34,616 nt of DNA from IMG/VR virus record IMGVR_UViG_3300025828_003018, positions 1-34,616 of that record; one strand, 5' to 3'. Made by a program: the position numbers and the translations under genes. Of the stretch, positions 22,110-23,224 are shown piece by piece. Origin of the DNA: a virus. Under the pieces are notes generated by a model that had not been told where the DNA came from, searched no databases, and was given only the letters and a program-made list of their open reading frames with translations. Position 1 is the stretch's first letter, and every line of letters starts with the position of its first letter.

Positions 22110-23224
22110 TGAGTGTAGTCAGACGATATAACAACAGTACAAGCGCTTGGGAAGCTGTTGCCATTGGTGACCTAGGGCCGACGGGACCGACTGGTCCCTC
22201 GGTCACTGGTCCGACTGGTCCCATTGGAGAGACTGGGCCCACCGGTCCAAGTGGTGGTCCGACGGGGCCAACAGGGCCTACAGGCCCCACGGGCGCAGAC
22301 GGTCCTACAGGTCCCCTAGGCGACACAGGACCTGCGGGTCCGACAGGGGCTGACGGACCTACTGGTCCCACCGGGCCTCAGGGTGAAGATGGCACTGCCG
22401 TAAACCTCAAGGGAGAAGTTGCCACAACAGGGGATTTGCCCGGTAGCGGTGTCGCTGGAGACGCTTACGTTGTAGAAGCGGACGGCGAACTGTACGTCTG
22501 GGACACAACCACTTCTCAGTTCCTCAGCATTGGTTCAATCCTAGGCCCCACCGGGGCTACAGGACCTACAGGCCCATCTGGTGGACCAACGGGTCCTACG
22601 GGTGCGACAGGTCCCACCGGACCGTCTGATGGTCCAACAGGACCAGAAGGACCTACTGGACCAACGGGTCCTACGGGTGCGACAGGCGCTCAAGGTGCGG
22701 ACTCGACTGTTACTGGCCCCACAGGTGCAGACGGTCCTACGGGTCCGACTGGTCCCACTGGCCCCGCAGGTCCTGCAGGAACTACCACTTTTACGGGTCT
22801 GGATGAGGTTACAAACGCTAACAAGGGCTATGACGAAGCTGCTCTTCCTGCGATTGCTCAGCTCGTCGTGACACCTAACGGTACTAATGGGTATCAATTC
22901 AACAGTCACTACAGCGGAGACAACCCAGACGTTTATGTCCTTGGTGGGGCCACAATCGCCTTTAAATTGAGTGGTCTTACTAGCCACCCCTTCAGGATTC
23001 AGGAAGACACTGGTTCTGGGTTCGCCAACATCTCTAGTGGCCTAATCCACGTTGACACAGACGGAACCGTGAACGTGGATGTCAACGCTCAGGAGCAGAC
23101 CTCAGGTACGGTTTATTGGAATGTTCCGGTAACTGCTGCCACAAACGGCTACCGATACCAATGCAGCATTCATACCGCTACCATGGTCGGGAACCTAGTT
23201 CACAAGGCTCTTAGCGCTATTTAG
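22109..23224 (+). CDS. Collagen-like tail fibre protein with cupredoxin-like C-terminal domain
   Basis: 371 residues. A short start ([20 protein letters not shown]), Gly-X-Y at about 22-92, one beta module ([24 protein letters not shown]), then Gly-X-Y to about 230. The last 140 residues form a beta domain in which His293 (in LTSHPFRI) and the cluster Cys352-x2-His355-x3-Met359 ([14 protein letters not shown]) sit as in plastocyanin and amicyanin, whose type 1 copper ligands are His, Cys, His, Met. The spacing lies between amicyanin (C-x2-H-x2-M) and plastocyanin (C-x2-H-x4-M). A metal-binding or cupredoxin-derived adhesin tip is therefore likely. The start overlaps the upstream stop, implying coupled translation of the two fibres. 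Confidence 0.82.

Follow-up and report, generated by a model that had tools for sequence, protein, structure and literature searches.

A predicted cupredoxin domain with a putative type 1 copper site at the end of a collagen-like phage fibre

The fibre gene and its cassette

The stretch of DNA analysed here (the window) is a virus record of 34,616 bases. An open reading frame on its forward strand (22109-23224) encodes a collagen-like fibre of 371 residues, formed by a short start, two collagen-like stretches with a non-repetitive segment between them, and a last part, free of repeats, that carries a cupredoxin domain at its end. The stalk (22172-22780, forward strand), which includes the non-repetitive segment, displays the Gly-x-y repeats that characterise the collagen-like tail fibres of phages: the whole fibre matches the Pfam family Collagen (PF01391) with 55.3 bits (cut-off 27.2), and no other Pfam family, the N-terminal domain T4_gp9_10_N included, matches it at E values up to 1. 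The fibre also matches PHROG families of tail proteins and tail fibres, and its last 141 residues match phrog_677, annotated as "baseplate wedge tail fiber protein connector" (E 3.8e-20).

The C-terminal domain spans positions 22847-23221 of the forward strand (profile match, 22847-23203; region modelled, 22781-23221) and contains four putative copper ligands: His293 (22985-22987), in the motif S/G-H-P-F; Cys352 (23162-23164), the only Cys of the fibre; His355 (23171-23173), and the axial Met359 (23183-23185). The first is assigned by its invariance and by the alignment of the family profile with a His of plastocyanin 6yez, and the other three by the sequence, their invariance and the profile alignment, together with a tally of loop lengths in the case of Met359. 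The reading frame, the collagen-like stretch and the positions of the four residues are all as the original prediction, made from the sequence, had placed them.

It had also been proposed that the spacing C-x2-H-x3-M is intermediate, and it does lie between that of amicyanin (C92, H95 and M98, with the first ligand at position 53) and the longer C-x2-H-x4-M loops of pseudoazurin and halocyanin, as given in the table of PMC517927. In the family the amicyanin-like H-x2-M is the norm (160 of 170 domains), while H-x3-M is found in 10 of the 170, the window domain among them; it is a one-residue insertion of the window subfamily and a few others that lengthens the distance between His355 and Met359. 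Azurin shares H-x3-M but combines it with C-x4-H. The His-to-Cys gap, of 59 in the window domain versus 39 in amicyanin (table in PMC517927), is longer because of an insert that is missing from the cyanophage versions. The long-type phage domains differ from amicyanin and plastocyanin in this insert and in the conserved extra His that it carries; this fifth His (His314, 23048-23050, motif G-L-x-H) is kept in 47 of 50 aligned domains.

Several genes of the window give hints about the host. A WhiB gene was found with Pfam, the helicase is 73.8% identical to that of the Actinomycetia phage DSL-LC01, and a second gene is 66% identical to another gene of that phage; taken together, these similarities point to an actinobacterial host. 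WhiB is present in five of eight related contigs. The DSL-LC01 genome was itself assembled from a metagenome and its host predicted, according to PMC10611076.

DSL-LC01, the phage genome that best matches these two window genes, has a similar cassette with an order like that of the window: collagen-like fibres, followed by a tryptophan halogenase, a glycosyltransferase and WhiB. In its nearest collagen fibre the head is of another type, and the next gene, WJZ48554.1 (L283, 15852-17222, reverse strand; annotated as a hypothetical protein), encodes a YHYH protein (YHYH domain, Pfam 80.7 bits) with a complete cupredoxin domain bearing H, C, H and M. Unlike the arrangement of the window, there the cupredoxin domain follows the YHYH domain and belongs to a separate gene, so that a single type of fibre cassette accommodates the domain in more than one architecture. 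The tryptophan halogenase gene of the window (357 bits, 23836-25440) lies just past the fibre, between methyltransferase and glycosyltransferase genes. No copper-handling gene was seen among the scanned window proteins, which represent part of the open reading frames.

Predicted fold of the C-terminal domain

The fold of residues 225-371 was predicted with AlphaFold2, using a 50-domain alignment drawn from the window and from IMG/VR loci. The model has a mean pLDDT of 86.9 and a pTM of 0.80, with values of at least 90 for 114 of its 147 residues; residues 21 to 140 of the construct reach 91-98 in blocks, and residues 1-18 remain below 50. It is formed by strands throughout, except for one short helix. 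The best 50 of the 1,365 Foldseek matches in the PDB are all cupredoxin-fold proteins, including laccases and other multicopper oxidases, nitrite reductases, plastocyanin, amicyanin, SufI, AcoP and a CuA chimera. Three of the 1,365 reach an E value of 0.001, and the TM-scores are moderate (for plastocyanin among the best 50, 0.40-0.43 by query and 0.56-0.60 by target). With VIA-align, SufI reaches a Z of 10.2 over 109 aligned residues (rmsd 2.9) and nitrite reductases a Z of about 10; of 999 chains, 194 have a Z of 8 or more.

Both the predicted model and the structure matches thus point to the Greek-key beta-sandwich of the cupredoxin family, in agreement with the fold that had been anticipated for this domain. 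The PDB matches listed by Foldseek and VIA-align include no phage fibre, an absence that carries no weight. When predicted structures of viral proteins were searched, the top matches included connectors and proximal tail fibres of cyanophages.

Kinship with blue-copper proteins

On its own, the window domain matches the Pfam family Copper-bind (PF00127) with 13.2 bits (E 0.13), below the gathering cut-off of 21.2. This cut-off is passed by three relatives (L051, 23.6 bits; L070, 22.1 bits; L278, 21.6 bits), and in a 13-member alignment 9 of the 13 match Copper-bind below the cut-off (best value 0.0032). The PDB list obtained by phmmer with the single window domain consists almost entirely of designed armadillo repeats, which were taken as a chance match.

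The profile built from the 50 domains finds plastocyanin 6yez first (E 7.7e-5), then rusticyanin and amicyanin, and the 11 PDB matches at an E value of 0.001 or better are all cupredoxin-family chains, as are 58 of 60 among the matches listed. The best whole-chain E value of 6yez sums stretches that singly reach only about 0.0015-0.0017, and many of the amicyanin matches span the Cys-His-Met end only. In the alignment with 6yez, which is one continuous stretch, the His of HPF falls on a His, and Cys, His and Met fall on Cys, His and Met, residues that we take to be the copper ligands of plastocyanin. A single short-type phage relative (L051) finds amicyanin at an E value of 3.6e-6, and its His, Cys, His and Met fall on positions 53, 92, 95 and 98, the amicyanin ligands in the table of PMC517927. 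The four residues are therefore aligned with known ligands by two routes, with 6yez by profile and with amicyanin through this relative. The window domain does not fit the diagnostic pattern PROSITE PS00196, judged by eye from the pattern as printed in PMC517927, because the Pro/Gly between Cys352 and His355 is missing; the table in that paper gives no such pattern for amicyanin.

The phage domain shares with amicyanin and plastocyanin (PF00127) the beta-sandwich and the His...Cys-x2-His-xn-Met set. It differs from them in being fused to a collagen-like fibre, at whose N-terminus no export signal was seen by eye, in the S/G-H-P-F motif around the first His, and in having no Pro before the second His.

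Conservation of the four residues

The 50-domain alignment excludes two degenerate domains, one row identical to the window and four cyanophage rows; ten of its columns are invariant, and all four ligands are among these. Since one of the earlier search patterns included the Cys, the recruitment of relatives was repeated with segments that contain no ligand (best 80 loci per scan; the two sets share contigs). With the middle segment 83 segments were matched, of which 20 are cut; 43 of the 45 distinct uncut domains have all four ligands and the other two have none. With the N-terminal segment there were 89 matches, 16 of them cut, and the four ligands are present in 48 of 48 distinct uncut domains. 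A chance motif was rejected on these grounds, that is, the four ligands persist in relatives recruited by ligand-free segments.

A full tally was made with a ligand-masked profile, with filters off, on 302 sequences (301 loci and the window). It yielded 195 distinct domains, of which 6 were cut by contig ends and set aside. The remaining 189 comprise 172 domains with all four ligands (some of them in cellular proteins), 16 with none, one with Met only and none with two or three. The exception is L253 (phage RN05-S; residues 181-275 of the frame from 2002), in which the four positions are F, A, V and M. Among the 16 without ligands, L085 and L109 have no C-terminal part that can be aligned, and the loss is read from the absent stretch; the L109 domain was also sampled as L059 and L094, from the same contig. 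The ratio of 172 to 16 is not a frequency, because 13 of the 16 ligand-less domains form one family that was fetched with the ligand-less copy of the window.

Rather than varying independently of one another, the ligands co-vary, as expected under the original prediction, and this joint presence or absence suggests that the residues of the metal site are retained or lost together, almost as a single functional unit. The same data bear on the possibility that copper is not used, and that the four residues persist as a structural relic or hold another metal such as zinc. In favour of this reading, phages are assembled in the cytoplasm, where free copper is very low. It is nonetheless quite unlikely when it is considered that all four residues are kept among relatives that are mostly 41-52% identical to the window domain, and that the loss of the site, when it occurs, is complete or nearly so, as would be expected on giving up binding.

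Five close sequences (72-82% identical in DNA) have dN values of 0.05-0.12, with dS saturated or high, which indicates constraint on the protein. A disulphide role for the Cys was rejected, given that there is a single Cys per domain in 167 of 170 cases; in 105 of the 170 there is no further Cys in the frame that was read.

A ligand-less sister domain

The window contains a second cupredoxin-like domain, without ligands, in another collagen-like fibre (reading frame 2-2260, forward strand). It lies at 1511-1804 (also delimited as 1478-1837), and was located by the ligand-masked HMM, alignments and a model. The former ligand positions are occupied by N, D, E and N; the match to the masked HMM has an E value of 2.8e-7 (24.6 bits, versus 19.0 bits unmasked). 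Across this family in related contigs, these positions hold N or R, D or S, D/E/N/S and a variable residue.

The best of five models has a pLDDT of 83.9, and the remaining four range from 62.6 to 73.0. Its best Foldseek matches are nitrite reductase, rusticyanin and AcoP, with E values from just above 0.001 to 1e-2; none of the best 50 reaches 0.001, and a few other sandwich proteins are present, and the list includes peptidyl arginine deiminases and, at rank 19, an Ig-like domain. VIA-align gives Z values of up to 10.0.

The Ig-like domain at rank 19 brings up the notion that the head of the fibre is an ordinary Ig-like domain in which the arrangement of His, Cys and Met arose by chance, all the more so as beta-sandwich domains are common in fibres. 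This notion was already disfavoured, and it is highly improbable in view of the match of the intact domain to blue-copper proteins at the sequence level, with the ligands aligned, and of the joint conservation of those ligands.

In another contig (L025) one fibre has an intact head and the next one has a ligand-less version (S, S, N, Q). Ligand-less versions thus persist in the same sets of fibres, and therefore the scaffold is useful without metal; it could fulfil a mechanical or adhesive task on its own. From the sequences, the metal would be an added property that most of the members found keep, apparently under strong selection. In the commoner ligand-less subgroup the ligands are mostly replaced by Asn, Asp and Asp/Glu, a set that, speculatively, could bind another ion such as calcium.

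Distribution and architectures

With the window domain as query, matches were found in 9 of 50,697 phage records. The hunch that similar domains exist in marine T4-like phages proved right when the version of cyanophage P-TIM40 was used instead, since 336 of the 50,697 records match it, 332 of them named Synechococcus, Prochlorococcus or Cyanophage and 4 named as marine viruses. Among the best 60 of these 336 matches, 48 are annotated as gp9/gp10-type baseplate or tail-fibre connectors. The four ligands are present in 19 of 20 loci picked from cyanophages and marine viruses (L018-L021, L252-L267), not all of them connectors, the exception being the Met-only domain of RN05-S described above. 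In IMG/VR, 317 relatives were counted.

The C-terminal domain of the cyanophage gp9/gp10-like connectors (phrog_677) is homologous to the window domain. The connectors that were read have neither the collagen stalk nor the insert, and possess instead a T4 gp9/10 N-terminal domain, as seen in the protein of L271 (Pfam T4_gp9_10_N, 38.8 bits; cut-off 25).

A profile search of genome contigs gave 15 loci. Many are flavobacterial proteins with a short-type domain, one of which is a BspA-like protein of a marine flavobacterium (L278); its C-terminal relative has the same motifs and exceeds the Copper-bind cut-off, as mentioned above, and it belongs to a cellular protein, unlike the virion-type fibre of the window. 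Two of the 15 loci, L268 and L271, have a cyanophage-type domain, and that of the gp9/10-type protein of L271 is nearly identical to the P-TIM40 domain. L271 is NZ_RMVE01000006.1 (188,235 bases), filed as Nonlabens xiamenensis, and the P-TIM40 genome has 188,632 bases; it is possible that this record is a cyanophage genome deposited under a bacterial name. The domain of L268, filed as Euryarchaeota, is similar to that of L271.

In 115 uncut carriers (genome contigs counted in; 66 further domains lie in cut frames) the domain is C-terminal in 52 and internal in 63. In the collagen-like uncut carriers it stands at the C-terminus in 13 of 14.

These architectures matter for a proposal in which the copper-loaded tip docks on copper-binding or copper-uptake proteins of the host, as the copper counterpart of the iron "Trojan Horse". 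Its attractions are the complete and conserved site at the end of the fibre and the precedent of the iron idea for T4 gp37-like and marine phage fibres, put forward in PMC11705849. We nevertheless regard docking as unlikely, in that these phages also maintain copies without ligands, the 63 carriers just mentioned have the domain in an internal position, and we know of no receptor. The likeness to the T4 fibre tips lies in the holding of a metal by a phage fibre. In gp37-type tips the metal is iron, held by paired HxH motifs at an unrelated site, and the fold is not that of a cupredoxin.

Blue-copper domains are known as electron carriers, and the well-studied sites of plastocyanin, amicyanin, rusticyanin and nitrite reductase serve electron transfer. 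By analogy, a redox-active head could exchange electrons on contact with the cell surface and act as a trigger or sensor. Such a function is very unlikely. Electron transfer as such loses ground because no partner was seen among the scanned window proteins (part of the open reading frames); the FAD-dependent tryptophan halogenase nearby has nothing tying it to the virion, and the collagen stalk offers no path for electrons. The existence of ligand-less and internal copies makes redox sensing, as well as copper docking, less likely.

Proposed function and meaning

The reading we favour, and consider somewhat better than even, sees in the C-terminal domain a genuine cupredoxin whose type 1 copper site is complete, and which serves as the head at the distal end of a trimeric, collagen-like fibre of the virion. 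Its computed basis is made up of the fold, a ligand set that aligns with the ligands of solved blue-copper proteins and is conserved or lost jointly, and the tail or baseplate annotation of relatives in many aquatic phages. The collagen stalk would trimerise the fibre, and therefore each fibre end would bear three cupredoxin sites. The head would be made in the host cytoplasm, where it would likely be empty, and copper would be loaded after lysis. Once bound, copper would fix the loops that hold Cys, His, His and Met, and thus yield a rigid head in which the lone Cys is shielded from oxidation; such a durable head would serve as a binding module in the adsorption to the cell surface.

The complete ligand set, together with the occurrence of the domain in tail proteins from hundreds of sequenced marine cyanobacterial viruses, makes it probable that copper is present on the surface of some virions. 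This idea has a further, doubtful extension, namely that infectious particles of these actinobacterial phages and of many T4-like marine cyanophages use copper as a functional component, with a host recognition that depends on it; fibre heads would then draw copper from the water, and a copper-locked or redox-active site would recognise hosts.

Cupredoxins and collagen-like fibres are both of known kinds; their combination as a fibre head is not described in the literature searched, and an intact blue-copper domain in that role does not appear among the matches listed from the open-access literature, a body of work that mostly leaves subscription journals outside. The closest idea found in print is that of iron bound by HxH motifs in fibres (PMC11705849). 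Viral nirK (PMC8115048) and the plastocyanin gene petE of cyanophages (PMC2984593) are metabolic genes, and PMC12487901 makes no mention of copper, plastocyanin or cupredoxin.

The cupredoxin fold with an intact site recurs as a module of phage tail proteins, among them the fibre connector of many sequenced cyanophages. Should copper be bound, virions would constitute a copper-carrying pool in the water, and the attachment to hosts could respond to copper. The sharp split between intact and ligand-less domains provides a natural control for the contribution of the metal, and the question of copper can be checked now on cultured cyanophages.

A minor observation concerns the subtilases. The window has a subtilase gene (Peptidase_S8, 89.4 bits; 19042-20607) amid its collagen-like fibres, and the subtilase gene of cyanophage S-H9-1 (L252, 842-2848) has a cupredoxin domain of the same kind at its end.
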